Positions 42,451 through 59,864 of a stretch of 64,000 bases of DNA are shown here, one piece after another. The notes beneath the pieces were generated by a model. It ran no database searches. It saw nothing but the letters and a program-made list of their open reading frames with translations, and was not told the DNA's origin. Origin of the DNA: Flavobacterium palustre (lineage in GTDB: Bacteria > Bacteroidota > Bacteroidia > Flavobacteriales > Flavobacteriaceae); assembly GCF_014639535.1 (NCBI RefSeq), contig NZ_BMGA01000001.1:1143185-1207184 (forward strand). Reading direction: 5' to 3'. The position numbers were made by a program, and so were the translations under genes. The stretch's first letter is position 1; each line of letters begins with the position of its first letter.

Positions 42451-42508
42451 ATATGACAGAAAATGGCAACTATTGATAATTCAAAATATAGAGGGAAATC
42501 TACATTTG
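42451..42508 (+). promoter_or_regulatory. PUL operator copy A plus -7 box, upstream of first GH2
   Basis: A 32-bp element (42451-42482) carries the three blocks TGACA, TGGCA and TGATA shared with copies at 52044, 57667 and 59806. GATAAT (42475-42480) is followed by exactly 20 bp and TACATTTG (42501-42508), a -7 box with no recognisable -33. In addition TGCCATTTCTTGTCA (42417-42431) mirrors TGACAGAAAATGGCA (42454-42468). Confidence 0.65.
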
Positions 42509-42570
42509 TAAAAGCTTATGGCGAAGTATAAGTGTTATAATTTCGAATGAATAATTAATAAAAAAGTAAT

Positions 42571-45555
42571 ATGAACTTAAAAGGATTAGTAGCAGGAGTG
42601 TGTTTGTTATCCTTATCGACAAACGGCATTTTTGCTCAAATAAAGGAATCGGAAAAAGTTAAGTATAATTTCAATTACGGTTGGAAGTTAAATGTGGGCG
42701 AGGCAGAAGAAGCTAAGCAGCTCAATTTTGATGATAACAAATGGACTAATGTTAATCTTCCTTATGCCTGGAATCAGGCCGAAGCGTTTAAAGTGGATAT
42801 CTCGCATTTATCCACCGGAATTGCCTGGTACCGCAAAACGTTTCAATTGCCTAAAGAAGCTGCCGACAAGAAAGTTTTTATTGAGTTCGAAGGAGTGCGA
42901 CAAATGGGCGAAGTGTATGTGAATGGTACTTTGGTAGGCTTGCACGAAAACGGAGCTATGGCTTTTGGTTTGGATGTGACTTCGTATTTGAAACCGTATC
43001 CTCAGGAAAATGTGATTGCCGTAAAAACGGATAATGATTGGCGCTACCATGAAAAAGCAACAGGTTCTACTTTTCAATGGAATGACAAAAATTTTAATGC
43101 TAACTACGGAGGGATTCCTAAGAATGTTTTTTTGCATATCAAATCAAAAGTGTACCAAACCTTGCCGTTGTATTCTACTTTAAAAACAACCGGAACTTAT
43201 GTGTATGCTTCCGATTTTGATATTGCCAATAAAAAAGCGGTTGTTAATGTTTCATCACAGGTTAAGAATGAGACTCCATCAGCAGTAAACGCTCAGTTAA
43301 AAGTGAGTGTAGTGGATATGGATGGAAAAGAAGTGGCTTCATTTTTAGGGGATTCTTTTTCGATAGGAGCAAACGAAATGAAAGATCTTAAAGCATCCAA
43401 AGCGTTAAATAATCTCAATTTCTGGAGCTGGGGTTATGGATATTTATATACTGTTACCAGTGAATTACTTATTGATAATAAACCGGTTGATGCGGTAGCT
43501 GTTCGAACAGGTTTTCGTAAAACAAAGTTTGAAAAGGGAATGGTTTACCTGAACGATCGTGTGCTAATGATGCACGGATATGCACAGCGCACCAGTAACG
43601 AATGGCCTTCGGTAGGAATGTCGGTTCCGGCATGGTTGAGTGATTATTCGAATAGTCTGATGGTAAAAAGTAATGGTAATCTGGTACGATGGATGCACAT
43701 TACGCCTTGGAAACAGGATGTAGAATCCTGTGACCGTGTGGGTTTAATTCAAGCGATGCCGGCTGGAGATTCGGAGAAAGATGTTACAGGACGCAGATGG
43801 GAACAACGCACCGAATTGATGCGTGATGCGATAATTTACAACCGTAATAATCCTAGTATTTTGTTCTACGAATCAGGAAACGAAAGTATTTCAGAAGAAC
43901 ATATGCAGGAAATGAAAGCTATAAGAGATCAATATGATCCTTTTGGAGGAAGAGCGATTGGAAGTAGAGAAATGCTTGATAGTAAGGTAGCTGAATATGG
44001 AGGAGAAATGCTATACATTAATAAGAGTGCAAAACATCCTTTTTGGGCTACTGAGTACAGCCGTGACGAAGGTTTGCGTAAATATTGGGACGAATTTACA
44101 CCGCCTTATCATAAAGAAGGAACCGGAGGAACTACACATGAAAATGTAAACGGAACAAAAGTAGTTGATGCCAGTGCTTACAATCACAATCAGGATGCGC
44201 ATGCTATAGAAAATGCGGTACGTTGGTATGACTATTGGGAAGCGCGTCCGGGAACAGGAGACCGTGTGAGTTCAGGAGGAGTAAACATCATTTTTAGCGA
44301 TTCGAATACCCATTATCGCGGACAGGAAAATTACCGCCGAAGTGGTGAAGTTGACCCAATGCGTATTCCTAAAGACGGATTCTATACGCATCAGGTAATT
44401 TGGGACGGCTGGGTTGATACTGATAAACCGGCAGCTCATATTATTGGTCATTGGAATTACGAAAAAGGAGTAACTAAGGATATTACTGTAATTTCAACTG
44501 CCGATGCAGTAGAATTATTTGTTAATGGAAAAAGTCTTGGAAAAGGAAAACAGGATAAAAAGTTTGTGTTTACATTTAAAAACGTGCAATATCAGTCGGG
44601 AGCTATTAAAGCTGTTGGTTATAATCAATCTGGAAAAGAAGTTTGCGTGGACGAAATTAAAACAGCTGGAAAGCCTTTTGCGCTAAAATTAAATGCAATT
44701 CAAAGACCGGGCGGAATGTTAGCCAATGCTAATGATTTGGCAATTGTAGAGGTTGAAGTTGTGGATAACAAAGGGAATCGTTGTCCTACTGCGATGAACA
44801 TGATTAATTTTGATGTTCAGGGACAGGGGACTTTCATAGGAGGAATTGCGCAAGGACCTGATAATTATATTGGTTCTAAAAATCTTCCGGTAGAATGTGG
44901 AGTGAATAGAATTTTTGTAAAAGCTAGTGATTTAGCCGGGATAATTAAGGTAAAAGCAACTTCTGAGTCACTGAAAACGGCTGAATTAAGTATCAAAACG
45001 AATAAAACAGATCTTCAAAAGTTATCATTGGCTATGCCAGCGGATAAGCTGCCATCGTATGTTGAAAAAGGACCTACACCAAGTACGCCTTCATTCAAAA
45101 AAACTAGAAATAGTGTTAAGATTTCAGAAGCAAAAACCGATGCTAATCCTGCTGATGCAGCAAAAAGTTTCGACGATAACGAATTGAGCCAATGGACAAA
45201 TGATGATGGAAGCCCGAAAATTGAATATGTTTTAGAGCGTGAAGCTACTATTAATCAGGTAGTACTAAAATTAGCCGGATGGAGAAGTAAAAAATATCCT
45301 ATTCGAATTTTTGTAGATGGGAAAAAAGTTTTCGAAGGAGTTACTCCTACCAGTTTGGGTTATGTAACCCTTGATGTTACTCCGGTTAAAGGAAGGAATG
45401 TTCAAATAGAATTGATGGGAACTTCAAAAAACAGTAAAGATATCAATCTGGTTGAAATTACCGGAAAAGTGGATGATGCCGGTTTAAAACAATCTAATTC
45501 GAAAACGTCACAATTGCCTATTGTTGAAGTGGAATTTTACGAGCCTATTCGTTAA
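42571..45555 (+). CDS. GH2-family glycosidase with C-terminal discoidin-like domain
   Basis: 994 residues, exported (signal to about residue 22, GIFAQ). Order: sugar-binding jelly roll (about 30-190), Ig-like domain (about 200-310), TIM barrel (about 315-620), a DUF4982-like Ig domain (about 625-710), a further Ig-like domain, and a carbohydrate-binding F5/8-type domain (about 850-975; SFDDNELSQWTNDDGSPKIEYVLE). Acid/base Glu438 lies in YESGNES and the likely nucleophile Glu495 in FWATEYSRDEG. The members include beta-galactosidases and beta-glucuronidases, so the bond cleaved is uncertain. First enzyme of the locus, under operator copy A. Confidence 0.85.
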   Translation: MNLKGLVAGVCLLSLSTNGIFAQIKESEKVKYNFNYGWKLNVGEAEEAKQLNFDDNKWTNVNLPYAWNQAEAFKVDISHLSTGIAWYRKTFQLPKEAADKKVFIEFEGVRQMGEVYVNGTLVGLHENGAMAFGLDVTSYLKPYPQENVIAVKTDNDWRYHEKATGSTFQWNDKNFNANYGGIPKNVFLHIKSKVYQTLPLYSTLKTTGTYVYASDFDIANKKAVVNVSSQVKNETPSAVNAQLKVSVVDMDGKEVASFLGDSFSIGANEMKDLKASKALNNLNFWSWGYGYLYTVTSELLIDNKPVDAVAVRTGFRKTKFEKGMVYLNDRVLMMHGYAQRTSNEWPSVGMSVPAWLSDYSNSLMVKSNGNLVRWMHITPWKQDVESCDRVGLIQAMPAGDSEKDVTGRRWEQRTELMRDAIIYNRNNPSILFYESGNESISEEHMQEMKAIRDQYDPFGGRAIGSREMLDSKVAEYGGEMLYINKSAKHPFWATEYSRDEGLRKYWDEFTPPYHKEGTGGTTHENVNGTKVVDASAYNHNQDAHAIENAVRWYDYWEARPGTGDRVSSGGVNIIFSDSNTHYRGQENYRRSGEVDPMRIPKDGFYTHQVIWDGWVDTDKPAAHIIGHWNYEKGVTKDITVISTADAVELFVNGKSLGKGKQDKKFVFTFKNVQYQSGAIKAVGYNQSGKEVCVDEIKTAGKPFALKLNAIQRPGGMLANANDLAIVEVEVVDNKGNRCPTAMNMINFDVQGQGTFIGGIAQGPDNYIGSKNLPVECGVNRIFVKASDLAGIIKVKATSESLKTAELSIKTNKTDLQKLSLAMPADKLPSYVEKGPTPSTPSFKKTRNSVKISEAKTDANPADAAKSFDDNELSQWTNDDGSPKIEYVLEREATINQVVLKLAGWRSKKYPIRIFVDGKKVFEGVTPTSLGYVTLDVTPVKGRNVQIELMGTSKNSKDINLVEITGKVDDAGLKQSNSKTSQLPIVEVEFYEPIR

Positions 45556-45787
45556 TTTGTTTTCACTTTAAACGAACAAAAGAGAAGTTTATATTTTTTT
45601 ATAAATGGTTTAGTCAATTTTTTGAAAAGTCTATCGAAATTTTTTTTAAATGGAGATAGGCTTTTTTAAATGTCGATATTGAAGTCCTCCGTGTTCAGTT
45701 TAAAAATGTAAAATTTAACATTTGTTAAAAAAATATAAATCACATAATTAAAAAAAATAAAATTAACAACAACCAAATAAATATAAA

Positions 45788-47233
45788 ATGAAAACCAAAC
45801 TTAAATTCATCTTTAGCTTATTGTTATTAGGAAGTATTTGCAATTTACACGCGATTGAACTGCCGAAAGTGATTAGTGACAATATGGTATTGCAACGCGG
45901 TAAGAAAGTTGTTATCTGGGGTAACGCCGAGCCTAATGAAAGCATTTCAGTAAGTTTTAAAAAACAAAATAAAAAAACAAAGGCTAATGCCGAAGGCAAA
46001 TGGTCGCTTTCTTTGGATTCTATGGAAGCGTCTTCGACTCCGGCTGTTATGGAAATTATGGGAGCTAAAGATAAAATTACGCTTCAAAATATATTGGTAG
46101 GAGAAGTTTGGCTGGCATCGGGTCAGTCCAATATGGAGTATTCGATGAACAATCATCCCAAATATGCCAAACCTCAAAAAGGAAACCCAAACTATTTGAA
46201 GGACGCATTTCGCGCTAAACAGGATCCGCGTTTGAGATTATTGTATGTTAATAAAGATTTGAAATCCAAAACCCTGCCTTCGGATGGCTGGCATATTGCT
46301 GACAGCACCGGATTGGTTCCAACATCGGCAGCGGCTTATTTTTTTGCTAAAAGATTAATGAAGGAATTGAATGTTCCTGTGGGAATTATCACTTCGGCCT
46401 GGGGAGGGACTCCTATCGAAAATTGGACTCCAATGCAGGCTTATGCTTCTAATTCATTATTTGCCAATAAAATTAGTAACGGGAAACTAGATAATCAGCA
46501 AATAGGGATGCGTTTTGAAGCGATGATTCGTCCGATGGCTCCTTATACACTAGGCGGTTTTCTTTGGTATCAGGGTGAAACTAATCTTATTAATGGAGAT
46601 ATAGCTGTTTATACTGATAAACAAAAAGCATTGATAGACAGTTGGAGAGCAGCCTGGCAGGATAACAAACTACCGTTTTACTTTGTGCAGTTGGCTCCAT
46701 ATAATTATTCTCACCGAGAAAAAGACCCGATAAAACATACTTCGGAAACTTTGCCGGAATTTTGGGAAGCACAAACTCAGGTCATGGAACGTGTTGCCAA
46801 TACAGCTATGGTAGTGACGACCGACTTAGTGGATAATCTCGCCGATATTCATCCTTCTTATAAATGGATTGTCGGAGAACGATTGGCACTTTGGGCATTG
46901 GCTAAGCAATATGGCAAGAAAAATGTAGTGTACAGCGGTCCTGTTTTTAAAAAGATGCGTATTGATGGAGATAAAGCTATTTTGGAGTTTGATTCTGTTG
47001 GTTCGGGATTGAAAACAACTGCTAATGACGGTTTGTTGACCTGGTTTCAAATAGGTTCAGGAGATGGTTCTTTTGAAAATGCCAAAGCAGTGATTGTCGA
47101 TAACAAGGTAATAGTTACAAGTAAAAAAATAAAAAAACCGGTCGAAGTACGATTTGCCTGGGATGAAGCTGCGATGCCTAATCTTTTTAATAACGAAGGT
47201 TTGCCTGCTTTGCCTTTTAGAACCAAAAAATAA
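45788..47233 (+). CDS. Sialate O-acetylesterase-type (SASA) esterase
   Basis: 481 residues: signal peptide (to about residue 20, CNLHA), a jelly-roll N-terminal domain, and a SASA/SGNH hydrolase core. Ser114 is in WLASGQSNMEYSM, GFLWYQGETN supplies the oxyanion/Asn motif, SAWGGTPIENW is the block III Gly, and His355 is in DIHPSYKWIVGERLA. In plant-polysaccharide loci these enzymes remove acetyl groups so that glycosidases can act; sialic acid need not be involved. The 232-bp gap to the GH2 contains no operator copy, so it may be read through from 42571. Confidence 0.85.
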   Translation: MKTKLKFIFSLLLLGSICNLHAIELPKVISDNMVLQRGKKVVIWGNAEPNESISVSFKKQNKKTKANAEGKWSLSLDSMEASSTPAVMEIMGAKDKITLQNILVGEVWLASGQSNMEYSMNNHPKYAKPQKGNPNYLKDAFRAKQDPRLRLLYVNKDLKSKTLPSDGWHIADSTGLVPTSAAAYFFAKRLMKELNVPVGIITSAWGGTPIENWTPMQAYASNSLFANKISNGKLDNQQIGMRFEAMIRPMAPYTLGGFLWYQGETNLINGDIAVYTDKQKALIDSWRAAWQDNKLPFYFVQLAPYNYSHREKDPIKHTSETLPEFWEAQTQVMERVANTAMVVTTDLVDNLADIHPSYKWIVGERLALWALAKQYGKKNVVYSGPVFKKMRIDGDKAILEFDSVGSGLKTTANDGLLTWFQIGSGDGSFENAKAVIVDNKVIVTSKKIKKPVEVRFAWDEAAMPNLFNNEGLPALPFRTKK

Positions 47234-47251
47234 AGAATCTATAATCAAAAC

Positions 47252-47462: not shown

Positions 47463-48770
47463 ATGAAACATTTAAAAAAAAGTTTTTTATCATTGCTGGC
47501 TATCAGCTTATTTTTCAATGCCAATGCTCAAAAAAAGCAAACAGCATTAGAATTTAATTTCGGAGAGAAAGTTAAAAGCAATTCAGGAACAGCAATCAAT
47601 AAAGCAGTTGAATACAGCGATGCTTTAGGTTATGGATTCGATTTTCAATCAGATAAAAATCTAACATTTGATAAGAAATCTATTTCGGCTCAGAGTCCAT
47701 TTTATTTTTCGGTAAAATTGCCTGAAGGAAATTACAGTGTTGAAGTTGTTTTAGGAGGTGATTCCAAGGCAGTAACTACAGTAAATGCAGAATCCAGACG
47801 ATTGATGCTGCGTGAAATAAAAACAGTCGAAAAAGAATCAAAAACAGAGCGTTTTATTGTAAATGTGAGAACGGGAGAATTTGATGGAAACAAAAAAATA
47901 GGTTTAAAACCTACCGAAATCAGCGGTTTGAACTGGGATAATAAATTGACTCTGGAGTTTTTAGGAACACCTAATGTTCAAAGTATTAAAATTACTCCGG
48001 TTTCAAAAATTAAAACACTTTTTATAGCAGGAGATTCAACTGTTACCGATCAGGGTTCGGAGCCTTGGGGATCATGGGGGCAGTTTTTTCCAAATTATTT
48101 AACTACTGATGTGTCAGTTGCTAATTATGCCTGTTCCGGTTTGGCTTTGAGTTCTTTTAAATCCGGAAAACGTTTGGATAAAATTTTACATTTAATGCAA
48201 CCGGGCGATTATCTTTTTATTGAATTTGGTCATAATGACGAAAAAGCCAAAGGCGAAGGAAAAGGTGCTTGGGGACAATATACTGCTTTGTTAAAAGAAT
48301 TTGTAAGCAGAACAAGAGAAAAAGGAGGGATTCCGGTATTGATAACCCCTACGCAAAGACGCCGCTTTAATGCTGACGGAACTTTAGAACCTACTCATGG
48401 TGAATTTCCTGATGCAATGCGTAAAGTCGCTGCCGAAATGAAAGTACCTTTGATAGATGTTACTAATATGACAACAGCCATGTATGAAAGTTGGGGTGAC
48501 GAACTTTCGAAAAAAGCTTTCGTATTTTATCCAGCCAATACGTTTCCGAATCAGGAAAAAGCCTTAGCTGATAATACCCATTTTTGTAGTTTTGGTGCTA
48601 ATGAAGTAGCGAAATGTGTGGTGCAGGGAATCAGGGATTTGAATTTTGATATTGCTAAAAATATAAAAATTACGGTAGCAAATTACGATCCTAAGAAACC
48701 ATCTCAGCCAAGTGAATGGACTGTGCCGGCTAGTGTAAGAATTGAAACAACTAAGCCGGATGGGAATTAA
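47463..48770 (+). CDS. Rhamnogalacturonan acetylesterase-like SGNH hydrolase (CE12)
   Basis: 435 residues with a signal peptide (to about ANAQ). Residues about 22-175 form a galactose-binding-like beta domain (LEFNFGEKVKSNSG...); the C-terminal SGNH domain has Ser192 in FIAGDSTVTDQGSEPWGSWG, the FGHNDEK block (Asn), and Asp370/His373 in LADNTHFCSFGANEVA. This combination is characteristic of CE12 enzymes that deacetylate rhamnogalacturonan I backbones. Transcription from the SASA gene must cross the long hairpin 47252-47429. A terminator follows. Confidence 0.87.
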   Translation: MKHLKKSFLSLLAISLFFNANAQKKQTALEFNFGEKVKSNSGTAINKAVEYSDALGYGFDFQSDKNLTFDKKSISAQSPFYFSVKLPEGNYSVEVVLGGDSKAVTTVNAESRRLMLREIKTVEKESKTERFIVNVRTGEFDGNKKIGLKPTEISGLNWDNKLTLEFLGTPNVQSIKITPVSKIKTLFIAGDSTVTDQGSEPWGSWGQFFPNYLTTDVSVANYACSGLALSSFKSGKRLDKILHLMQPGDYLFIEFGHNDEKAKGEGKGAWGQYTALLKEFVSRTREKGGIPVLITPTQRRRFNADGTLEPTHGEFPDAMRKVAAEMKVPLIDVTNMTTAMYESWGDELSKKAFVFYPANTFPNQEKALADNTHFCSFGANEVAKCVVQGIRDLNFDIAKNIKITVANYDPKKPSQPSEWTVPASVRIETTKPDGN

Positions 48771-48875: not shown

Positions 48876-49754
48876 TCAACTCTTTAACATCGTTTTTCGG
48901 TATTGAGACGGAACATATCCCAGGCTTTTTTTGAATGTTTTATTGAAATGAGAAATGGACTCAAAGCCACACTGACTACTAATATCGGAAATGCTGATGT
49001 CTTCCATAATCAATAGTTTGCAGGCATAACCAATTCGCATATCCAATATATAGTTTTTAAAAGACTTGCCTGTTTTGCTTTTAAAATAGCGACAAAAAGC
49101 AGCTGCATTCATCGCTGCAAAAGAGGCGATTTCTTCAAGACTGATATGACGGGTGTAGTTTTTATTCAAATAAGATATTATTTTATCAATTCTTGCCGTA
49201 TCGTAAATGGTTTCATTGATAAAATCCGAAGTGGAAATAATTTGCCTGTTGTCGGTTTCCGACATTTCTTTCAGCAATTCCAAAAAAAGCAGCAGTTGGT
49301 TCAAACCGTTTTCCAAAGGCAGTTTTGCTAATAAATCCTGCAATTTTGGCGACTGGGCTGAAGAAAAGTAAATCCCTCTGACAGAATCCTGCAATAATTT
49401 TTTGATTTTGATAAAATGCGGATAATGATTGATTGCATAATACATAAAATCTTTTTCAAATTGAATGATGGTACCCTTCACTCTTAAATTGGTATTTCCG
49501 GAATGGTAAGCATCATCACTTTTCATAAAATGAGGTAAATTAGAGCCAATAAGTAATATATCGCCGGCATCAAATTGAGCAATGTTGTTACCCAGAAACC
49601 GGGTTCCTGTACCTTGCTGTATGTAAATTATCTCGTATTCGGAATGAAAATGTAAGGGATAAGAAAAATGGGCATAATCAAAAAAACGTGCTTTTAAAGG
49701 AGAAGACTCTGAAATAGGAAGCCGTTCGTTCATAATAGTTTTCATAGGCGACAT
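48876..49754 (-). CDS. AraC-family transcriptional regulator with cupin sensor
   Basis: 292 residues. The N-terminal cupin-like domain (about 30-140) has HFHSEYEIIYIQQGTGTRF, typical of sugar or uronate sensors; the C-terminal two-HTH domain (about 190-290) has HISLEEIASFAAMNAAAFCRYFKSKTGKSFKNYI and ISDISSQCGFESISHFNKTFKKSLGYVPSQYR. It is divergent from the uxuB-like/uxuA genes across 105 bp that contain a TAAATTTG box (49822-49829) for the plus direction. That arrangement suggests local control of uronate catabolism. The start could also be one of the next Met codons (49745 or 49733). Confidence 0.9.
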   Translation of the reverse strand: MSPMKTIMNERLPISESSPLKARFFDYAHFSYPLHFHSEYEIIYIQQGTGTRFLGNNIAQFDAGDILLIGSNLPHFMKSDDAYHSGNTNLRVKGTIIQFEKDFMYYAINHYPHFIKIKKLLQDSVRGIYFSSAQSPKLQDLLAKLPLENGLNQLLLFLELLKEMSETDNRQIISTSDFINETIYDTARIDKIISYLNKNYTRHISLEEIASFAAMNAAAFCRYFKSKTGKSFKNYILDMRIGYACKLLIMEDISISDISSQCGFESISHFNKTFKKSLGYVPSQYRKTMLKS

Positions 49755-49859
49755 TCTTTAATTTGCAAAAATAGCATCATTGTATGCAAATTTAGGAAAT
49801 AAAATTGGCTTTGCTTCTCTTTAAATTTGTATCTCTATTAATCTAAAAATAAATAAGAT

Positions 49860-50675
49860 ATGAATGATACATTTAGTATTAAAGGAAAAGTGGCAATTGT
49901 TACAGGCGGTGGCGGAGTACTTGGAGGAAGTATTGCAAAACACTTAATTAGTGCAGGATGTAAAGTTGTTGTACTGGATATCAGAGAAGAAAATGTAAAT
50001 GATCGTGTAGCCGAATTAAAAGAATTAGGAGGAGAAGCTATTGGTTTTGTTTCGAATGTTTTGGATGTTGAAGAAATGAAAGAAACCAGAGCAAAAATAG
50101 TGGCTAACTGGGGAACAATTGATATCCTGATTAATGCAGCGGGAGGAAATATGCCCGGTGCAACATTAACTGAGGAACAAACTGTTTTTGATATGAAAAT
50201 TAGTGACTTTGAAAAAGTAACCGATTTGAATTTGAACGGAAGTGTGTATCCTTGTATTGTTTTCGGTGAAGTTATGGCAAATCAGGGGAGCGGGAGTATA
50301 ATTAATGTATCTTCGATGGCAACTTTGTCAGCTATAACAAGAGTTCCTGGTTATTCGGTAGCTAAAAGCGGAATTGATATTTTTACAAAATGGCTGGCAA
50401 TGGAATTGGGAACTAAATTTGGAGAAAAAGTAAGAGTAAATGCAATTTCTCCGGGATTTTTTGTTGGAGATCAAAACAGAAAAGTCTTGATTAATGAAGA
50501 TGGTTCTTATACCGAAAGAAGTAAAAAAGTATTGGCAAGAACGCCAATGAAACGTTTTGGTGATATTAATGAATTGAACGGAATTGTTCAGTTTTTATGT
50601 TCGGATGCAGCAAGTTTTATAACAGGAACTATTATCCCTATTGATGGAGGTTTTAGTTCTTTTAGCGGAGTTTAA
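49860..50675 (+). CDS. uxuB: SDR-type D-mannonate oxidoreductase (UxuB-like)
   Basis: 271 residues of a classical short-chain dehydrogenase: VAIVTGGGGVLGGSIAKHLI (cofactor), NAAGG (near 97), Ser of INVSSMATLSAI, and YSVAKSG (catalytic YxxxK). It resembles the SDR group that, next to UxuA, interconverts D-fructuronate and D-mannonate, replacing the long-chain UxuB of enterobacteria; the NMPGATLTEEQTVFDM insertion agrees with that group. It precedes uxuA by 12 nt. The exact substrate is inferred from the neighbour. Confidence 0.85.
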   Translation: MNDTFSIKGKVAIVTGGGGVLGGSIAKHLISAGCKVVVLDIREENVNDRVAELKELGGEAIGFVSNVLDVEEMKETRAKIVANWGTIDILINAAGGNMPGATLTEEQTVFDMKISDFEKVTDLNLNGSVYPCIVFGEVMANQGSGSIINVSSMATLSAITRVPGYSVAKSGIDIFTKWLAMELGTKFGEKVRVNAISPGFFVGDQNRKVLINEDGSYTERSKKVLARTPMKRFGDINELNGIVQFLCSDAASFITGTIIPIDGGFSSFSGV

Positions 50676-50687
50676 AAAAATAATAAA

Positions 50688-51896
50688 ATGGAATTAAAAA
50701 AGACATTAAGATGGTTTGGAGCAAAGGATCCAATTAGTCTGGAACAAATTAAACAAACGGGAGCAACGGGTATTGTTACGGCTTTACATCATATTCCTAA
50801 TGGCGAAATTTGGTCAGTAGAAGAGATTTTAAAGACCAAAAATAATATCGAATCTTATGGTTTGACATGGGATGTGGTAGAGAGTTTGCCGGTTCATGAA
50901 GATATTAAAAAAGGAAAAGCCAGCCGCGAAAGGATTATTGCTAATTATAAAGAAAGCGTCAAAAACTTAGGGAAATGTGGAGTTACAACCATCTGCTATA
51001 ATTTCATGCCGGTATTGGATTGGGCAAGGACCAATTTGAATTATACCCTTGAAAACGGTACGGTGGCGATGTATTTTGGAGCCGATTTGTTTGCTGCATT
51101 TGATATGTTCATTTTAGAAAGACCTAATGCTTCTAACGATTATACCGAAGACCAAATCAAAAAAGCGGAAGCTCTATATCAGACTTTAACCAAAGAAGAT
51201 GCCAGAGCTCTTGCTTATAATATTATTGTTGCTACCCAGTCTTTTATTGACGGAGCAGTGGGGGAAGATGAAAAAGAGCCTATCAAAATATTTTTAAAAT
51301 TATTGGCTGAATATGATGGAATTGATAAAGATAAATTAAGAGAAAATTTTGCTTTTTTCTTAAACGAAGTCATTCCTGTTGCTGAAGAATCCGGGGTTAG
51401 TTTAGCCGTACATCCTGACGATCCTCCTTTTCCTCTATTAGGATTACCACGTATTATGAGTACAGCCGATGATTTCGAATGGTTGTCAACTGTTTGTCCG
51501 TCCTTACATAACGGAATTACTTTTTGTACCGGTTCATTAGGAGCGAGAAAAGACAATAATCTGTATGAAATTTTCAAAAAATATGCTGAGCGTGTGCATT
51601 TTCTGCATTTAAGAAGTACTAAAATATTAGACAATGGCGATTTTTATGAAACAGAGCATTTAGATCCAACGGTGGATTTACCGGGAGTAATGAAAGCTAT
51701 TGTCAAAGAGCAAATTAGAAGAAAGTCTGAAGGAAGAACCGATTATAATTTACCTATCCGTCCGGATCACGGACATAAAATGTTAGACGATTTTAACAGA
51801 GCAGGAAATCCAGGTTATCCATTAATTGGAAGATTAAAAGGTTTGGCTGAATTGGCAGGACTTGAAATGGGAATTCGTTATTCAATTCAGAATTAA
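50688..51896 (+). CDS. uxuA: Mannonate dehydratase
   Basis: 402 residues, full length. UxuA landmarks: MELKKTLRWFGAKDPISLEQIKQTGATGIVTALHHIPNGEIW, SGVSLAVHPDDPPFPLLGLPRIMST, LHNGITFCTGSLGARKDNN, VHFLHLRSTK and LPIRPDHGHKMLDDF. These provide the metal-binding His, Cys, His and Asp residues. The enzyme dehydrates D-mannonate to 2-keto-3-deoxygluconate; no kdgK or kdgA is in the window. It completes a two-gene glucuronate branch next to GH115, which would release glucuronate. Confidence 0.96.
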   Translation: MELKKTLRWFGAKDPISLEQIKQTGATGIVTALHHIPNGEIWSVEEILKTKNNIESYGLTWDVVESLPVHEDIKKGKASRERIIANYKESVKNLGKCGVTTICYNFMPVLDWARTNLNYTLENGTVAMYFGADLFAAFDMFILERPNASNDYTEDQIKKAEALYQTLTKEDARALAYNIIVATQSFIDGAVGEDEKEPIKIFLKLLAEYDGIDKDKLRENFAFFLNEVIPVAEESGVSLAVHPDDPPFPLLGLPRIMSTADDFEWLSTVCPSLHNGITFCTGSLGARKDNNLYEIFKKYAERVHFLHLRSTKILDNGDFYETEHLDPTVDLPGVMKAIVKEQIRRKSEGRTDYNLPIRPDHGHKMLDDFNRAGNPGYPLIGRLKGLAELAGLEMGIRYSIQN

Positions 51897-52043
51897 AGAA
51901 TGAAAAATAACAACGAGAGCAGTTGTTCTAAGTGTCTTTATTGAATCAACTAAAAATAAAAATTTACGCTACTTAACCATGTTTTGCATCAAAATTTTAA
52001 GGTGCAAAACATTGATTATAAATGTATTTTATATACTGTCTTA

Positions 52044-52101
52044 TTTTGATAAGCATTGGCAATATATGATAATACCCAAATTAAGGCTTAAGTTAATTTT
52101 G
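52044..52101 (+). promoter_or_regulatory. PUL operator copy B plus -7 box, upstream of second GH2
   Basis: The 32-bp element at 52044-52075 includes TTTTGATAAGCATTGGCA, then a TGATAATAC end; GATAAT (52068-52073) is followed by 20 bp and TAATTTTG (52094-52101). A 25-bp stretch here (52037-52061) is identical to 57660-57684. The 288-bp gap 51897-52184 otherwise shows nothing recognisable. Confidence 0.75.
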
Positions 52102-52184: not shown

Positions 52185-54677
52185 ATGAAATTAAAAATCA
52201 CAACTAATCCGCTTTGGAAGAATGTGCAGTTAAAATACACAGTGTTTACTATTTTGAGTATTGTATTATTACTGTATTCAAGTAGTAGTTATTCTCAAAA
52301 AAAGTTGGAGGATAATTCAAGAAAAGTATTGTTTGATAACGACTGGCATTTTTATAAAGGAAGTGTAAAAAATGCACAAGATCCATTGTATGATGACAGC
52401 GCATGGAGAGTTTTGGATTTACCGCATGACTGGAGTATTGAACCTTTGCCAAATCAAAAGAAAGACTCGGTTGTAGGTCCTTTCAGCAGGGCAAGTGTGG
52501 GCGGATTTGCCACAGGACAAACCGTTGGAGGCGAAGGATGGTACCGTAAAACATTCACCATTTCAGCTGAAAACAAAGCAGAGCGACACGAATTGTATTT
52601 TGAAGGCGTGTACAATCAGGCTGAGGTTTGGGTAAATGGCCGTAAAGCCTATTACAATGTCTATGGGTATTCTTCTTTCCGATTTGATATTAGTCAATAT
52701 TGTAATCCCGTGGGGCAGGAAAATGTAATTGCGGTCAAAGTTCTTAACGAAGGTAAAAATTCCCGTTGGTATTCGGGTTCCGGAATTTATCGTCACGTCT
52801 GGATGTTACATACTGCAAAAAACTATCTGGATGATTGGGGAACTTTTATAACCACGAAAAAGGTTGAAAATGGGCAAGCTGAAATTGATTTGTCAGCTAC
52901 AGTAGTAGTAGGAAATGGAAAAAATGAAGATTTGACCCTAGTAACTGAGTGGATTTCTCCCAAGGGGAAAAGTGTTGTAAAAGCATCTCAAAAAGTCAGT
53001 ATAAATGGTACTGAAAATAAAGTAGTTCCTTTTACTATAAATGTGAAGAACCCTTCTTTGTGGTCAACCAATAATCCTAATTTATATAATGTTCAAATTT
53101 CCCTTTGGAAAGGAAAAACAAAAGTGGATGAATTGAAGGTGCCATTTGGAATCCGAACGTTGGATTTTTCTGTTACGGAAGGATTTAAACTTAACGGTGT
53201 GAAAACTTTATTAAAAGGAGGCTGCGTGCATCATGATAACGGACTTTTAGGTTCGGCGTCTTTTGACAGAGCAGAAGAACGCAAAGTGGAATTGTTGAAA
53301 AAGAATGGATTTAATGCGATAAGAACCTCCCACAATCCAATGTCTGAAAGTTTTTTAAATGCCTGCGACCGATTAGGGATGTTGGTCATCAATGAGGCAT
53401 TTGATCAGTGGAACGGAAAGAAAAACCCAGATGATTATCACCTTTATTTTAAAGAATGGAGTGCCAAAGATATTCGCAATTTTATAATCAGAGACAGAAA
53501 TCATCCTTCTGTTATTATGTGGAGTCTTGGAAATGAGATTCCAGAAAGAATTACGGATAAAGGAAGTGAAACCGCATTGTATTTGAAAAATGAAATTCTG
53601 AAATACGATACCACACGTCCTATCACGGCAGGGGTCAATAAATATTGGGATAAGGAACGAAAAAATATGCTTTCGTTAGAGAATGCATTGAAGCACTTAG
53701 ATGTGTCGGGTTATAATTATATGTGGCGTTTTTTCGAAGAAGAACACGTTAAAAATCCTGGAAGAGTGATGTACAGCAGCGAAAGTGTCGCTACCGAAGC
53801 TTCTGAAAATTGGGATAAAGTAGAAAAATTGCCTTATGTAATTGGCGATTTTGTTTGGACTGCTATGGATTATTTGGGAGAATCAGGTTTGGGAAATTCA
53901 TTTGAAGTGGATCCGCAGGAAAATGTGCATCAGTTTATGGGATGGCCTTGGTACAATGGCTGGTGTGGCGATATTGATTTAATTGGAGTAAAGAAACCAC
54001 AATCGTATTACAGGGATATACTTTGGAGAGAAAAAAACATTAGTATGGCAGTAGAATTGCCGGTTGCAGAAGGTAAGATAAAAAAGGTAAGTTTTTGGGG
54101 TTGGCCTGAAGAATCCTTGTCCTGGACTTTTCCAAATATGGAAAACAAAGAGTTGAATGTTAACGTTTATTCTCGCGCCGAAAAAGTAAGGTTGTATCTA
54201 AACAATCAATTGATTGCAGAAAAGGAAACGAATAGCCAATATAAATCCAGTTTTAAAGTGCCATATAAAGCAGGTATTCTTAAGGCTGTAGAAGTTGATA
54301 AAAATAAAGAAGGAGCCAGTGCCATTTTGCAAACAATTGGTAATCCTGTAGCAATAAAATTAACAGCTGATTACAAAACTCTAAAAGCCGACGGTCAGGA
54401 TCTTTCCTATGTTTTGATTGAACTGATTGATAAAAACGGAAATGTAGTTCTTGATTCAAATCAGAAAATAAAAATCAGTTGTGAAGGTTCGGGAAAAGTT
54501 ATTGGTTCAGGAAATGGGGCGCCAACCGATATGGCCAGTTTTGGTTCGCTTGAACCGTCTCTTTTCAAAGGTAGGGCGATGGTGATTGTCAGAGCTGGAA
54601 AAGTGTCTGGTAAAACAGAATTAACCGTTTTGTCAGACGGAATGCAATCGGCTTCAATCACAATAAATTCAAAATGA
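52185..54677 (+). CDS. GH2-family glycosidase (beta-galactosidase type)
   Basis: 830 residues. After a hydrophobic segment near 20-37 (cleavage around SSSYSQ) come the GH2 sugar-binding domain (about 45-215, with LPHDWSIEPLP and GEGWYRKTF), the Ig-like linker (about 220-330), TIM barrel (about 335-620), and DUF4982/Big-type C-terminal domains. Acid/base Glu451 is in MWSLGNEIPE; nucleophile is probably Glu533 in MYSSESVATE. It is translationally coupled to GH115 by a 4-bp ATGA overlap, so both act on one substrate in the same compartment, perhaps removing galactose or glucuronate-linked units. Confidence 0.9.
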   Translation: MKLKITTNPLWKNVQLKYTVFTILSIVLLLYSSSSYSQKKLEDNSRKVLFDNDWHFYKGSVKNAQDPLYDDSAWRVLDLPHDWSIEPLPNQKKDSVVGPFSRASVGGFATGQTVGGEGWYRKTFTISAENKAERHELYFEGVYNQAEVWVNGRKAYYNVYGYSSFRFDISQYCNPVGQENVIAVKVLNEGKNSRWYSGSGIYRHVWMLHTAKNYLDDWGTFITTKKVENGQAEIDLSATVVVGNGKNEDLTLVTEWISPKGKSVVKASQKVSINGTENKVVPFTINVKNPSLWSTNNPNLYNVQISLWKGKTKVDELKVPFGIRTLDFSVTEGFKLNGVKTLLKGGCVHHDNGLLGSASFDRAEERKVELLKKNGFNAIRTSHNPMSESFLNACDRLGMLVINEAFDQWNGKKNPDDYHLYFKEWSAKDIRNFIIRDRNHPSVIMWSLGNEIPERITDKGSETALYLKNEILKYDTTRPITAGVNKYWDKERKNMLSLENALKHLDVSGYNYMWRFFEEEHVKNPGRVMYSSESVATEASENWDKVEKLPYVIGDFVWTAMDYLGESGLGNSFEVDPQENVHQFMGWPWYNGWCGDIDLIGVKKPQSYYRDILWREKNISMAVELPVAEGKIKKVSFWGWPEESLSWTFPNMENKELNVNVYSRAEKVRLYLNNQLIAEKETNSQYKSSFKVPYKAGILKAVEVDKNKEGASAILQTIGNPVAIKLTADYKTLKADGQDLSYVLIELIDKNGNVVLDSNQKIKISCEGSGKVIGSGNGAPTDMASFGSLEPSLFKGRAMVIVRAGKVSGKTELTVLSDGMQSASITINSK

Positions 54678-57571
54678 TTATGAAATATTTAGTTTCAATT
54701 TTAGGTTTGTTATTTTTTAGTCAAACTGTTTTTTCAAAAACGGAATCACTTCCAACTTTTGAAATATATTCCAAGAAACATCAAGCTGTAATTTTATATG
54801 ATAAAGATGGCTCTCCACTTGATTCTATTACTGCCCATTTATTAGCAGAGGATATTTACAAAGTAACCCATTATAAACCTAAAGTGATTACCAATAGTAA
54901 GAATGCTGAAGGGAATGTTATTGTTATAGGAAGTATCATTTCTAAGCTGATGAATCCATTTATTGATAAAAAGTTGATAAAAGGAAATTTTTCAAATCAA
55001 TGGGAAAGTTACCTTTATAAAACGATTCTTAATCCTAACAAAAAGATTAATAAAGCCTTTGTTATTGCTGGTACAAATCCGCGAGGAACAGCTTATGGGG
55101 TTTTTGAATTATCCAAAAAAATTGGGGTGTCTCCCTGGTATTGGTGGGCCGATGTAGCTGTTAAAGAGCAAAATGAGTTGGTACTGAAGCAAAATGATTT
55201 CCAGTCTAAAGAACCTTCGGTTAAGTATCGAGGAATCTTTTTAAACGACGAAGATTGGGGATTACAGCCTTGGGCGGCTAAAACATTTGAACCGGAAACA
55301 AAGGATATTGGTCCTAAAACCTATGCTAAAATTTTCGAATTGTTATTGCGCTTAAAAGCCAATACCATTTGGCCGGCGATGCATGAAAGTACCAAAGCTT
55401 TTTTTCATTATCCAGGCAATGCCAAGATGGCAACTTTGTACAATATTGTTTTAGGCACTTCGCATGCTGAACCGATGTTGCGCAATAACGTTGACGAATG
55501 GAATGAGAAAGAATTCGGCAGATTCAATTACAAAACAAATAGTGATAAGGTTTTCAAATATTGGGAAAATCGTGTAAAAGAAGCCAAAAAAATAGACGGA
55601 ATTTATACTATTGGGATGCGTGGCGTGCATGATAGCGGAATGGAAGGCGTAAAGAACAACGACGAAGCAGTTGAATTGTTAAACAAAGTCATTAAAGACC
55701 AAAGAAATTTGCTGCAAACTAATATAAATCCTGATGTGACGAAAATTCCGCAGGTATTTACCGTTTACAAAGAAGTATTGGATTTGTACAAAAACGGATT
55801 GGTAGTGCCGGAAGATATTACGTTGGTTTGGACTGATGATAATTACGGATACATCAGATCTTTGAGCAATGCCGAAGAGCAAAAACGTTTCGGAGGTTCA
55901 GGAGTGTATTATCATGTTTCTTATTGGGGAAGACCGCATGATTATTTATGGCTGGATACGACCAATCCTTTTTTACTTAGAGAAGAAATGATGAAAGCGT
56001 ACAATTTAAAAAATAATAGAATTTGGATTTTGAATGTAGGTGATATTAAACCGGCCGAATATAATACACAATTATTTTTAGATATGGCTTATGATGCCAC
56101 TCTATTTCAGCAATCAGAATCGATAATAGCTCACCAACAGCAATTTTATGGGGAAATTTTTGGTAACCAATACGCAGAAAGCATTGCCAATATTCAGACA
56201 GATTATTACCAATTAGCATTTGAGCGTAAACCTGAATTCATGGGTTGGAGTCAGACCGAACCTACAACGGGAATTTTTAATACAGCCTATAATGCTTTGG
56301 GACAGGGAGATGAGATTAAGAAACGACTTGATGCGTATGAAAGTATGGTAAAACAAGTAGAAGCCATAGAAACACAATTGCCGGAAAATTTAAAAAGTGC
56401 TTATACCCAATTGATAAGTTATCCGGTTAAGGCTTCGGCAAATATGAATAAAAAGTTTCTTTACAGAGACAAAGCGTTGGTTTATGCAGCTCAAGGGAGA
56501 AAAAGTGCTTTTAAATATAAAGAAATGGCTAATGAGGCCTATAATAATATCGTAAGTCTGACAGAAAATTATAATCAGTTATCTAATGGAAAATGGAAAG
56601 GTTTTATGAATATGAAGCCTCGAAAACTTCCTGTATTTGACAATCCTGAAATCAATTTAACTGTGGTTTCTTCTAAAGAGACACTTGGAATTTCGGTGGA
56701 AGATACTTTAAAAGTTAATGGAATTGATAAATTACCAACGTTTTATGTTAATGATTCAGAATCACATTTTATAGATGTTTACTTTCCGGAAACTCAAAAT
56801 GCCTCGTTGAAGTGGAAGTTTAAGACATTGCCCAATTGGATTCAAGTAAGCTCCACGTCAGGTCATTTTTTTCCTGATGATTCTGTGCTGTTGGAAGAAA
56901 GAATATCACTTTCAGTTGATTGGAGCAAATGGGAAAAAGAAGGAAAACCTACTTCGGATTATTTAGTAATTCAGAGCGACGGTTTTGAGAAAAAGATTTT
57001 AGTAAATGTTTCCGATAGTTATACTAATGTTCCTAAAAATGCAATAGTAGAAAAAAACGGTATGGCGGTATTTTATGCTAATAGTTATGTAAATATTAAA
57101 GCCAATGGGGATTTAAAATGGGAAACTTTAAAAGGATTGGGACATTCGAAAGCAACGATGCAAGCTTTGCCTTTAAATAGTTTACCTAATACAGACTATG
57201 AAAAGACGGCTGTATTAGAATATGAATTATTTACTGAGACAGTTACTAACGAAGCCGAATTAAATTTGGTAGCAATTCCCACACATCCTCTGGATGTAGA
57301 TGGAAAGGTTAGAATTGGTGTACAGTGGAATGATGAGCCCGTTAAAATTTTGGATTTTAAAACTGAAGGGAGAAGTAAAACTTGGAAAGAAAATGTGTTT
57401 ACGAATAAAGCAATAAACAAAATAAAAGTTGCCGTTAAAAACCGAGGCAAGCAAAAATTAAAAATCTATATGCTAGATCCCGGAGTGTTGTTGGATTATT
57501 TTGTTTTAAATACAAATAAAGGATCTTTGCCTTATCATTTAGGAACAGAAACCAGAATAGGAAATGAATAG
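54674..57571 (+). CDS. GH115 alpha-glucuronidase
   Basis: 965 residues with a signal peptide (FFSQTVFS). The N-terminal domain (about 25-165) holds GTNPRGTAYGVFELSKKIGVSPWYWWADV; the catalytic barrel (about 170-520) has KYRGIFLNDEDWGLQPWA, LKANTIWPAMHES, GTSHAEPMLRN, GMRGVHDSGMEG and WTDDNYGY. A helical region and C-terminal beta domains follow. GH115 members remove (4-O-methyl)glucuronic acid from xylan or arabinogalactan side chains. The ATGA overlap with the GH2 makes one transcript; a Met two codons later (54680) is an alternative start. The UxuA/UxuB pair upstream could consume the released sugar. Confidence 0.93.
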   Translation: MIMKYLVSILGLLFFSQTVFSKTESLPTFEIYSKKHQAVILYDKDGSPLDSITAHLLAEDIYKVTHYKPKVITNSKNAEGNVIVIGSIISKLMNPFIDKKLIKGNFSNQWESYLYKTILNPNKKINKAFVIAGTNPRGTAYGVFELSKKIGVSPWYWWADVAVKEQNELVLKQNDFQSKEPSVKYRGIFLNDEDWGLQPWAAKTFEPETKDIGPKTYAKIFELLLRLKANTIWPAMHESTKAFFHYPGNAKMATLYNIVLGTSHAEPMLRNNVDEWNEKEFGRFNYKTNSDKVFKYWENRVKEAKKIDGIYTIGMRGVHDSGMEGVKNNDEAVELLNKVIKDQRNLLQTNINPDVTKIPQVFTVYKEVLDLYKNGLVVPEDITLVWTDDNYGYIRSLSNAEEQKRFGGSGVYYHVSYWGRPHDYLWLDTTNPFLLREEMMKAYNLKNNRIWILNVGDIKPAEYNTQLFLDMAYDATLFQQSESIIAHQQQFYGEIFGNQYAESIANIQTDYYQLAFERKPEFMGWSQTEPTTGIFNTAYNALGQGDEIKKRLDAYESMVKQVEAIETQLPENLKSAYTQLISYPVKASANMNKKFLYRDKALVYAAQGRKSAFKYKEMANEAYNNIVSLTENYNQLSNGKWKGFMNMKPRKLPVFDNPEINLTVVSSKETLGISVEDTLKVNGIDKLPTFYVNDSESHFIDVYFPETQNASLKWKFKTLPNWIQVSSTSGHFFPDDSVLLEERISLSVDWSKWEKEGKPTSDYLVIQSDGFEKKILVNVSDSYTNVPKNAIVEKNGMAVFYANSYVNIKANGDLKWETLKGLGHSKATMQALPLNSLPNTDYEKTAVLEYELFTETVTNEAELNLVAIPTHPLDVDGKVRIGVQWNDEPVKILDFKTEGRSKTWKENVFTNKAINKIKVAVKNRGKQKLKIYMLDPGVLLDYFVLNTNKGSLPYHLGTETRIGNE

Positions 57572-57652: not shown

Positions 57653-57666
57653 TTATCGATGTCTTA

Positions 57667-57724
57667 TTTTGATAAGCATTGGCAGTAAGTGATAATACAA
57701 GATTTTATAGTAAAATTAATTTTG
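57667..57724 (+). promoter_or_regulatory. PUL operator copy C plus -7 box, upstream of the LTxxQ gene
   Basis: The element (57667-57698) matches copy B almost throughout; GATAAT (57691-57696) is followed by exactly 20 bp and TAATTTTG (57717-57724). A second TAATTTTG at 57733-57740 could also act as a -7 box. Confidence 0.75.
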
Positions 57725-57763: not shown

Positions 57764-58066
57764 ATGAAAAAATTATTTATTGTAGCCATATTGGCTTTAG
57801 GATTGAACGGGTTTGCTCAGGAAGTATCAGCTTGGTCAACAAAAAAAGTAGAGAAAATGACAACGGAATTGTCTTTAACCGCCGAGCAACAAAAATTAAT
57901 GTTGCCTTTATTTGAAGAACAAAAAAAAATATATGATGATATCAAGGCTAATCCAGATACGAAGGATGATAACAGAGCAAAAATCAGAGAGATTGTAAAA
58001 CAAATTAATGCAATTTTAACTCCTGAGCAATTAGCCCGTCAAAAAGAGTTGAAAGCTAATAAATAA
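57764..58066 (+). CDS. Small exported LTxxQ-type protein
   Basis: 100 residues with a signal peptide (MKKLFIVAILALGLNGFAQ). The mature part is helical with two LTxxQ-like motifs, LTAEQQKL (near 38) and LTPEQLARQ (near 87), like the Spy/CpxP-type envelope stress proteins, but shorter and without the usual cradle length. It has its own operator copy C and starts the unit containing the CE6-CE4 fusion. A periplasmic chaperone or helper of the saccharolytic enzymes is possible, but is inference. Confidence 0.75.
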   Translation: MKKLFIVAILALGLNGFAQEVSAWSTKKVEKMTTELSLTAEQQKLMLPLFEEQKKIYDDIKANPDTKDDNRAKIREIVKQINAILTPEQLARQKELKANK

Positions 58067-58082
58067 AATGATTTGATAGTTT

Positions 58083-58109
58083 AATTCCCGTTATTGACTA
58101 GCGGGAATT
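58083..58109 (+). terminator. Small hairpin between LTxxQ and CE6-CE4 genes
   Basis: AATTCCCG (58083-58090) pairs with CGGGAATT (58102-58109), then a short T stretch. It is 17 nt past the LTxxQ stop and may attenuate rather than stop transcription into the next gene, which has no evident promoter of its own. Confidence 0.55.
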
Positions 58110-58119
58110 TTATATTATT

Positions 58120-59604
58120 ATGATAATGAATATAAATGTGAAGATGGTTTTTAAGTTAATAAGTTGTCTGTTTTTAAGTATCGGATTTAATGCTTATGCA
58201 CAAAAAACAGTGAAGGAATTGGATTTGTATTTACTCATAGGTCAGTCGAATATGGCGGGTAGGGGAGCTGTTGATGCACAAAGTCAGGAAACATCAGAAG
58301 CCATTTTGATGCTTGATAAAAATAATAATTGGGTAACAGCCAAAGATCCGGTTCATTTTGACAGGGCTTCAGCAGGTGTTGGACCCGCTATCAGTTTTGC
58401 TAAAAGCATGCTTGAAGGAAAGAAAAATACCCAAATTGGTCTGATACCTTGTGCTTGGGGAGGTTCTCCAATAAAAGTATGGTCACCGGGAGCGAAGTAT
58501 TTTGAAAATTTTCCTTATGATGAAGCTATTGCAAGAGCTAAGATTGCTATGCAAAGCGGAGTCTTGAAAGGGATTTTATGGCATCAGGGAGAATCGGATA
58601 ATGATTCTAAAAAATCAGCGGTTTATTTGTCGAAACTAAAAACTTTAGTAGCTAATTTAAGAAGAGATTTGAATATGCCAGATTTGCCTTTTGTAGCTGG
58701 GGAAATTGGATGTTTTAATAAAGCAGATTATATTAATAAAATAGTGAATACGCTTCCGGACGAAGTAGAGAATACGGCAGTAGTTTCTTCGGAGGGTTTG
58801 GTCGATAAAGGAGATCAGCTTCATTTTGATAGTCCATCTGCCAGAGAATTGGGAAAACGATATGCTGAAGCAATGAAAAAGTTGCAGGCAAAAATTACAG
58901 GAGAAAATAAGTCTAAAACAGATAAACCGAAAAAAGTATCTTCTGCAAAATCAAATCAACCTACTGTAGTGTTAACTTTTGATGATGCTGAAATTTCGCA
59001 TTACAATAATGTAGCTCCTTTATTAAAAAAGTATGGTTTTGATGCTACTTTTTTTGTTTGCGAATTTCCGCTTAAAAATCCCAATCAAAAAAACGAATAC
59101 ATGACCTGGGGTCAAATACAGGAGCTTCATAAAAAAGGTTTTGAAATAGGAAATCATACCGGACATCATAAAAATGTAACCAAATTAAGTCCGGAAGATA
59201 TTGATAAAGAAGTTGCTTATGTCGAAGAAAAGTGTGCCGAATTTAATATTCCAAAGCCTATTTCTTTCGCTTATCCCGGAAATCGGTATGATTCTATTTC
59301 GCAAGGAATTTTAAAAAAAAGAGGTTATAAATACGCCAGAACAGGCGGAAGTAAATTATACAATTCAGTTACTGATCCCGTATTAGCGATTCCAAGTTAT
59401 ACCGTAATATCTTCTGATAAATATTACGAACGTGTCAAAAAAGCATTGACGGACTTATTGCCCGGAGAAACGATTGTTTTGACTTTTCATGGTGTCCCTG
59501 ATTTAATTCATCCTGATTATTCGACTACGATTGAAAATTTAAAAGAGATTTTACAGTTAATAAAAGATAAAAAATATAAAGTAGTCGCTATGAAAGATAT
59601 GTAG
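58120..59604 (+). CDS. CE6-like (SASA) esterase fused to a CE4-like polysaccharide deacetylase
   Basis: 494 residues: signal peptide (to about NAYAQ), a CE6/SASA esterase (about 30-255) with Ser43 in LIGQSNMAGRG, PCAWGGSPIKVW, WHQGESDN and the His of LHFDSPSARELG; a lysine-rich linker (about 258-280); and a NodB-type domain (about 283-490) with the metal-binding Asp289 in LTFDDAE and His346/His350 in GNHTGHHKN, then SFAYPGN. Both domains deacetylate sugars, but by different chemistry (serine versus metal). Placement of both in one chain would suit an acetylated pectin or xylan. Alternative start codons within the first 10 residues cannot be ruled out. Confidence 0.87.
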   Translation: MIMNINVKMVFKLISCLFLSIGFNAYAQKTVKELDLYLLIGQSNMAGRGAVDAQSQETSEAILMLDKNNNWVTAKDPVHFDRASAGVGPAISFAKSMLEGKKNTQIGLIPCAWGGSPIKVWSPGAKYFENFPYDEAIARAKIAMQSGVLKGILWHQGESDNDSKKSAVYLSKLKTLVANLRRDLNMPDLPFVAGEIGCFNKADYINKIVNTLPDEVENTAVVSSEGLVDKGDQLHFDSPSARELGKRYAEAMKKLQAKITGENKSKTDKPKKVSSAKSNQPTVVLTFDDAEISHYNNVAPLLKKYGFDATFFVCEFPLKNPNQKNEYMTWGQIQELHKKGFEIGNHTGHHKNVTKLSPEDIDKEVAYVEEKCAEFNIPKPISFAYPGNRYDSISQGILKKRGYKYARTGGSKLYNSVTDPVLAIPSYTVISSDKYYERVKKALTDLLPGETIVLTFHGVPDLIHPDYSTTIENLKEILQLIKDKKYKVVAMKDM

Positions 59605-59632
59605 TTAAAATTTAGAAAATTGAGTAGAAAAC

Positions 59633-59667
59633 AAAAACACTTGTGAAAAGATTTTGCAAGTGTTTTT
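59633..59667 (+). terminator. Intrinsic terminator after the fused esterase
   Basis: AAAAACACTTG (59633-59643) pairs with CAAGTGTTTTT (59657-59667), followed by TGTTTTT. Confidence 0.75.
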
Positions 59668-59805
59668 TGTTTTTAAAAGGATTGAACTTAATTATTGAAA
59701 TCCTTTTTTAGTTAGAATGGATATTTGAATTCAATTTAATTTGGACAATTGATGATTTTAAATTGATTACATTAAAAAACAGGCATGAAAAATAATTTTG
59801 GCAGG

Positions 59806-59864
59806 TTTTGATAACTATTGGCAATTATTGATATGTTGATAAGCCCTTGTAATATCTAAGTTTG
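59806..59864 (+). promoter_or_regulatory. PUL operator copy D plus -7 box, upstream of the PL11 lyase
   Basis: The element (59806-59837) reads TTTTGATAACTATTGGCA, then TTATTGATATG; GATATG (59830-59835) is followed by 21 bp and TAAGTTTG (59857-59864). The ATG is 28 nt beyond the -7 box. The rest of the 288-bp gap shows only the terminator at 59633. Confidence 0.7.

Follow-up and report, generated by a model that had tools for sequence, protein, structure and literature searches.

The 64,000-nucleotide stretch of Flavobacterium palustre DNA analysed here (the window; the genome measures 3.97 Mb in 36 contigs) raises the question of which regulator reads a DNA element that recurs, at an almost constant distance from a promoter box, in front of several sets of glycan-degradation genes. 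The same locus encodes a hybrid two-component system (HTCS) protein, a member of one of the main classes of glycan regulator in Bacteroidota. The sequence leads us to conclude that the elements, each 35 bp long, are very probably the operators of this adjacent HTCS at activator-dependent promoters. This interpretation is supported because the motif is unique in the genome, is conserved beside HTCS orthologs, keeps a fixed spacing to the -7 box, and changes together with the HTCS in a pair of paralogs. The regulator (assigned by Pfam and orthologs) and the four operators (assigned by motif match and alignment) are as follows:

35727..39467, + strand: HTCS, the proposed regulator; the earlier note on this DNA placed its ATG start at 35802
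42444..42478, + strand: operator 1, TGTCA-n5-TGACA-n5-TGGCA-n5-TGATA, preceding GH2a
52037..52071, + strand: operator 2, TGTCT-n5-TGATA-n5-TGGCA-n5-TGATA, preceding GH2b-GH115
57660..57694, + strand: operator 3, TGTCT-n5-TGATA-n5-TGGCA-n5-TGATA
59799..59833, + strand: operator 4, TGGCA-n5-TGATA-n5-TGGCA-n5-TGATA, a perfect box repeat

Pfam found Reg_prop and Y_Y_Y (the sensor propeller), HisKA, HATPase_c, Response_reg and an AraC-type HTH_18 domain in the protein encoded at 35727-39467. A sensor propeller, a histidine kinase, a receiver and an AraC-type helix-turn-helix (HTH) thus occur on a single polypeptide, as in the HTCS class, and the protein does end in an AraC-type HTH as the earlier note had proposed. 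The four operators precede, in order, GH2a with a SASA esterase and a GDSL esterase; GH2b with GH115; a small protein with a SASA/deacetylase fusion; and a rhamnogalacturonan lyase family 11 protein (operon extents are taken from gene order). The element therefore lies upstream of glycan-degradation operons linked to an HTCS gene, both here, where the targets include GH2, GH115, esterase and polysaccharide lyase family 11 (PL11) genes, and at orthologous loci.

Operator anatomy and promoter spacing

The earlier note had described four 32-bp elements carrying TGAnA, TGGCA and TGATA blocks, and direct inspection confirmed all four copies with these blocks where they had been placed. The element is nevertheless 35 bp long, with a first box 7 bp upstream that had been missed (TGTCA, TGTCT, TGTCT and TGGCA in operators 1 to 4). 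When the sites were aligned with their flanks, the consensus was TGKCN-n5-TGAYA-n5-TGGCA-n5-TGATA, one box per 10 bp: two tandem 20-bp units. In each unit an A box that fits TGKCN, and is often TGGCA, precedes a B box that fits TGAYA and in the proximal unit reads TGATA. The 20-bp period previously proposed was right, although the repeating unit is the pair TGKCN-n5-TGAYA and not TGAnA/TGATA alone. This period, which matches the direct repeat of about 21 bp expected of an HTCS operator, recurred in 22 distinct sites that were selected because they fit the operator pattern. Within this selected set, box 4 was TGATA in 22/22 sites, the C of both A boxes was invariant (22/22), and the leading TG was present in 21/22 first boxes and 22/22 third boxes; the most variable was box 2, which reads, for example, TGAAT in some relatives.

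Downstream of each operator stands a TAnnTTTG box:

42501..42508, + strand: TACATTTG, -7 box of promoter 1, 22 bp past operator 1
52094..52101, + strand: TAATTTTG, -7 box of promoter 2, 22 bp past operator 2
57717..57724, + strand: TAATTTTG, -7 box of promoter 3, 22 bp past operator 3
59857..59864, + strand: TAAGTTTG, -7 box of promoter 4, 23 bp past operator 4

The regularity that had been claimed between GATAAT/GATATG and TAnnTTTG thus holds when measured from TGATA (22, 22, 22 and 23 bp). So does the reported lack of a -33 TTTG: the 27 bp upstream of each box contain none. We then considered 25 promoters selected for having a site, comprising 4 from the window, 20 from other Flavobacterium or same-genus genomes and 1 from Wenyingzhuangia. 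The distance from box 4 to TAnnTTTG was 22 bp in 20 of them and 23 bp in 5; along the window's plus strand, TAnnTTTG starts at a background frequency of about 0.0008 per base. TTTG was found 17-23 bp upstream of TAnnTTTG in 0/25, with two promoters carrying it at 16 and 10 bp. This count excluded duplicate listings of the same promoter, the siteless F. alvei locus (L087), the two Plebeiobacterium loci (L092 and L094, weak candidates with no TAnnTTTG within 90 bp), and the weak candidates G687a 14269/14289, G687b 32620 and window 41294. A passage on F. psychrophilum gives -12 to -5 as the position of the sigma-A box in flavobacteria (PMC9723704), which would put box 4 at about -39 to -35. The proximal half-site accordingly lies beside a degenerate -33 element, the arrangement of an AraC/XylS-kind activator site at a promoter lacking -33.

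We propose that the HTCS would sense an oligosaccharide and become phosphorylated, and that two of its AraC-type domains would then occupy the site in tandem from the same face of the DNA, the N-terminal HTH on the A box and the C-terminal HTH on the B box. The proximal unit would take the place of the missing -33 element and thereby recruit RNA polymerase to the promoters of GH2a, GH2b-GH115, the small protein-SASA pair and PL11. The tandem AraC-type binding suggested by the earlier note agrees with HTCS predictions in the passages available from PMC3878776.

A genome scan, which the earlier note had called for, showed that the motif does not occur at random density. The strict pattern TGAYA-n5-TGGCA-n5-TGATA matched 4 times in the 3.97-Mb genome, all at the locus (backwards-pattern control, 0), and a scan for TGGCA-n5-TGATA with TAnnTTTG downstream at the spacing seen here retrieved the same 4 and no others (control, 0). 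Six of 396 other genomes of the family sample carry one strict match each (reversed control, 3). With up to 2 mismatches, the three-box pattern gave 21 matches in the genome versus 7 for the control: 5 in the locus and 16 scattered outside it. Further members of the regulon were considered and set aside: the four-box pattern with up to 3 mismatches yields only the five copies at the locus (reversed control, 3). The fifth of these, an inverted copy at 42407-42441 (- strand), had been overlooked when four copies were counted in total. A matrix built from 6 sites found in relatives likewise ranked the five copies 1-5 in the 64 kb, with scores of at least 20.7 versus 11.3 for the next.

Conservation with the HTCS and the identity of the regulator

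We compared 79 related loci, 15 from Flavobacterium and 64 from elsewhere; the nearest named relative found was F. glycines (GH2a 97% identity). The best four-box site of the locus lay within 500 bp upstream of GH2a in 13/15 Flavobacterium loci. In F. seoulense and one F. fluvii locus the top-scoring site upstream of GH2a is the inverted copy, and in the other F. fluvii locus the second-best site is upstream of GH2a, the best being another operator. F. alvei has no four-box site at its locus, and nothing in its genome matches the HTCS at more than 33% identity. Among the 64 non-Flavobacterium loci, the highest site scores upstream of GH2a were those of Wenyingzhuangia (20.0) and two Plebeiobacterium loci (17.6 and 13.8), followed by 11.5; these three loci also encode an HTCS, 41-55% identical. 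In relatives the site is located between the HTCS and GH2a orthologs, and it is kept at GH2a in F. ajazii, where the HTCS (67%) lies 11.7 kb upstream on the same contig, and in genome G544, where it lies 14.8 kb upstream.

To relate motif and regulator across the genus, we used 299 genomes including that of the window, which was left out of the counts, together with the pattern TGAYA-n5-TGGCA-n5-TGAYA; HTCS orthologs were counted at 57-76% identity, and the protein of G512 (32%) was not. The motif was present in 5/8 genomes with an HTCS ortholog vs 8/290 without one (Fisher p = 3.6e-6), and the reversed control pattern matched 1/299. Thus, the operator is conserved together with the HTCS ortholog, with F. 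fluviatile as the exception.

F. fluvii (G687) provides a second line of evidence. Its two HTCS/GH2a loci are paralogous, and the A boxes of their operators are TGGCA in one and TGTCG in the other. At the first locus, which has TGGCA sites, the first recognition helix of the HTCS reads SQRQ; at the second (L064-L065) it reads NERQ, and three sites have TGTCG in both A boxes. This helix begins with NE in the second F. fluvii HTCS and with SQ, SS or SP in the other Flavobacterium orthologs looked at. A joint change of A box and first recognition helix fits the HTCS as reader, because in MarA and Rob the A box is read by the N-terminal HTH, as stated in a passage of PMC8279559. In Wenyingzhuangia, the helix is SQSQ and the A boxes are TGAAT and TGACA, a weaker case because its site scores lower. 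The F. fluvii pair offers natural variants for HTCS specificity and makes a protein-to-DNA recognition code testable.

Could some other regulator, merely accompanying the locus, read the sites instead? In F. fluviatile the site occurs without a detectable HTCS ortholog, and a different AraC-type gene lies directly upstream of GH2a in F. ajazii (L083 8961-9749) and in G544 (32415-33341 of the joined region). Only in these two genomes was that gene observed next to GH2a, however, and the linkage to the HTCS, the paralog-specific box change in F. fluvii and a direct-repeat form that matches HTCS predictions all favour the HTCS, so that we regard another regulator as very unlikely.

The earlier note had left the choice between the HTCS and the AraC-family protein encoded at 48876-49754 (- strand). 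This protein sits within the locus, carries an AraC-type HTH, and has orthologs of 74-86% identity in G447, F. fluvii and G544. Yet F. limi (G127), F. salmonis (G579) and F. cheongpyeongense (G607) have perfect sites and the HTCS with no AraC match above 33% identity, and it is this absence of an ortholog from site-bearing genomes that disfavours the AraC protein. In addition, its best matches are 34-37% in G427 and none exceeds 32% in G676, the F. fluvii ortholog is on another contig, and no four-box site within 3 mismatches occurs between the AraC and SDR genes. We therefore consider it very unlikely that the AraC protein binds the four sites; the half of the earlier proposal that named the HTCS is the one supported.

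Chance, or common descent of duplicated promoters with no regulatory function, is scarcely credible: operators 2 and 3 share much sequence and could stem from a promoter duplication, but the operator keeps a fixed distance to the -7 box from one species to another and, over 12 GH2a promoters, the forward site is better conserved in its boxes than in its spacers (0.85 vs 0.50, permutation p = 0.0002).

Several observations weigh against assigning the sites to the HTCS. Eight of the 290 genus genomes without an HTCS ortholog also match the motif. Conversely, a strict match is absent from 3/8 genomes with an ortholog: the site of G447 is relaxed (score 24.1), that of G676 is no more than weak (12.7 vs 12.3 for the next best in its region), and G427 is not judgeable because its contig ends inside the HTCS gene. 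F. fluviatile (L090) has a site upstream of GH2a, with TGACA as third box, and no HTCS match above 34% identity in the genome searched, which reflects either recent loss or an assembly gap. The relatives compared are mutually non-independent, and the box-to-helix argument is based on one clear event. As for the stray matches, 8 of the 14 matching genus genomes have no HTCS ortholog and were taken as chance, as no locus protein lies within about 1.5 kb, and the same was assumed for 5 matches outside the genus (L026 and L028-L031).

An inverted copy at the GH2a promoter

The GH2a promoter carries the fifth copy, on the opposite strand and upstream of operator 1; 2 bp separate the first boxes of the two sites:

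42407..42441, - strand: inverted operator copy, TGACC-n5-TGACA-n5-TGGCA-n5-TGACA, 2 mismatches from the four-box pattern; similar inverted sites occur at 11 related promoters

An inverted site was present in 12/19 compared GH2a promoters, 2 bp away from the forward site in 11 of them and 3 bp away in one, and each of the 12 outscored its own 300 plain base shuffles. In these promoters, the same 12 in which the forward site was assessed above, the boxes of the inverted site were better conserved than its spacers (0.74 vs 0.55, p = 0.016; p = 0.005 once nine more divergent rows were added), and the 35 bp beyond it showed no box-like conservation (0.36 vs 0.38, p = 0.71). Because the test took just the 12 promoters with a detected inverted site, it is conditioned on its own detection.

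This selection of promoters counts against reading the inverted copy as an operator, as do three further points. The inverted site is weaker than the forward one, and that of F. fluvii b1 scores only 0.5, below the 5.3 of L098. A full inverted site is absent from 7/19 GH2a promoters (L088, L089, L090, L093, L098, L139 and G676), among which L098 (p = 0.007, gap 0), L093 (0.027, gap 0) and L090 (0.033, gap 37) have weak ones. Finally, operators 2, 3 and 4 of the window lack an inverted partner.

We also considered whether the copy serves divergent transcription. A divergent promoter was rejected, with no TAnnTTTG within 45 bp at 12/12 promoters, and so was a divergent gene: the nearest sizeable upstream gene is co-oriented with GH2a at all 12, short opposite-strand open reading frames upstream of GH2a (e.g. 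78 aa in L084) being treated as spurious. With no promoter of its own, the inverted operator 2 bp upstream would probably hold a second dimer. We find the evidence evenly balanced on whether the two sites form a head-to-head double operator, in which a second four-box site 2 bp away on the opposite strand (eight boxes in 72 bp), retained in a Flavobacterium group without divergent gene or promoter, would place two membrane-tethered HTCS dimers back to back and make the control of the first operon, and of no other, cooperative or threshold-like. If true, the paired inverted operator would be an extra layer of control, one that goes unmentioned in the HTCS passages covered. The passages and listings of HTCS literature that we found likewise hold no mention of an inverted second operator; within the finding, this conserved copy is the more unusual element.

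Comparison with known systems and the rest of the locus

Direct-repeat motifs averaging 21 bp apart have been predicted for 16 HTCSs of B. thetaiotaomicron, with a dimer proposed on one DNA face (Ravcheev et al. 2013, PMC3878776, known to us in passages). Like those, the Flavobacterium operator is a direct repeat before HTCS-linked glycan genes with a period of about two helical turns (21 bp there, 20 here). Unlike those, as far as the passages go, an A and a B box can be told apart in each of its halves, it keeps 22-23 bp to TAnnTTTG across species, and it has an inverted second copy at GH2a, which those passages do not mention for the B. thetaiotaomicron HTCSs (motif logos were not compared). 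The kind of operator, an HTCS direct repeat, is thus already predicted in Bacteroides, and the Flavobacterium sequence adds the same kind, more finely resolved; the earlier note's description of the site as newly visible holds for the Flavobacterium sequence and not for the kind. The predictions in PMC3878776, in the part covered, concern Bacteroides, and the present locus shows regulator, operator, promoter spacing and targets side by side in a Flavobacterium. Among the matches listed, in a search outside of which most subscription journals lie, no paper dealt with an HTCS operator from this genus.

In passages of PMC11253607, response-regulator fragments of the HTCSs BT4124 and BT4663 bound promoters with predicted sites in electrophoretic mobility shift assays. 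These are, like ours, HTCSs with receiver and HTH_18 domains, and differ in acting on other glycans in another genus; those passages give no operator boxes. According to passages of PMC5481539, XylS at Pm also works through a pair of direct repeats in which a TGCA A box lies 5' and a GGTA B box 3'; the protein has two recognition helices and binds in tandem beside polymerase. The A and B boxes are 6 bp apart at Pm and 5 here, however, and XylS is a soluble benzoate sensor acting at another promoter type; the resemblance is one of working, not of membership.

The genes under the operators, assigned by Pfam, are:

42571..45555, + strand: GH2a, family 2 glycoside hydrolase, first target gene
45788..47233, + strand: SASA-type carbohydrate esterase, 3' of GH2a
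47463..48770, + strand: GDSL esterase, 3' of GH2a
52185-54677, + strand: GH2b (GH2b-GH115 together span 52185..57571)
54674-57571, + strand: GH115
57764..59604, + strand: small protein (a weak LTXXQ match, below the Pfam cut-off), then a SASA and polysaccharide deacetylase fusion
59893..64000, + strand: rhamnogalacturonan lyase family 11 protein, truncated by the contig end

The esterase, GH2, GH115 and family 11 lyase targets point to an acetylated pectic glycan with glucuronate as the probable substrate of the locus. The fusion protein (58120-59604) joins a SASA acetylesterase domain to a polysaccharide deacetylase domain, and in relatives the matches extend over almost its full length. Since the right end of the window is the contig end, the last gene runs out of view together with anything beyond it. 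No SusC/SusD match occurred among the locus proteins scanned with Pfam; the contig stops at 64000, and no genome search for SusC/SusD was made.

Between operators 1 and 2, positions 48876-51896 hold the AraC gene, divergent from SDR and UxuA genes and without an HTCS operator; this segment may be a separate uronate unit within the locus. Between the HTCS gene and operator 1, at 39565-42291, lie a HEPN protein, a nucleotidyltransferase/HepT-like pair and a small HTH protein. At the corresponding junction, F. glycines has a 208 aa gene (L079 9056-9682), F. undicola (L084) has genes of 197 and 493 aa, and G447 has none; from these gene contents, the junction looks like a recurrent insertion place that spares the operator.

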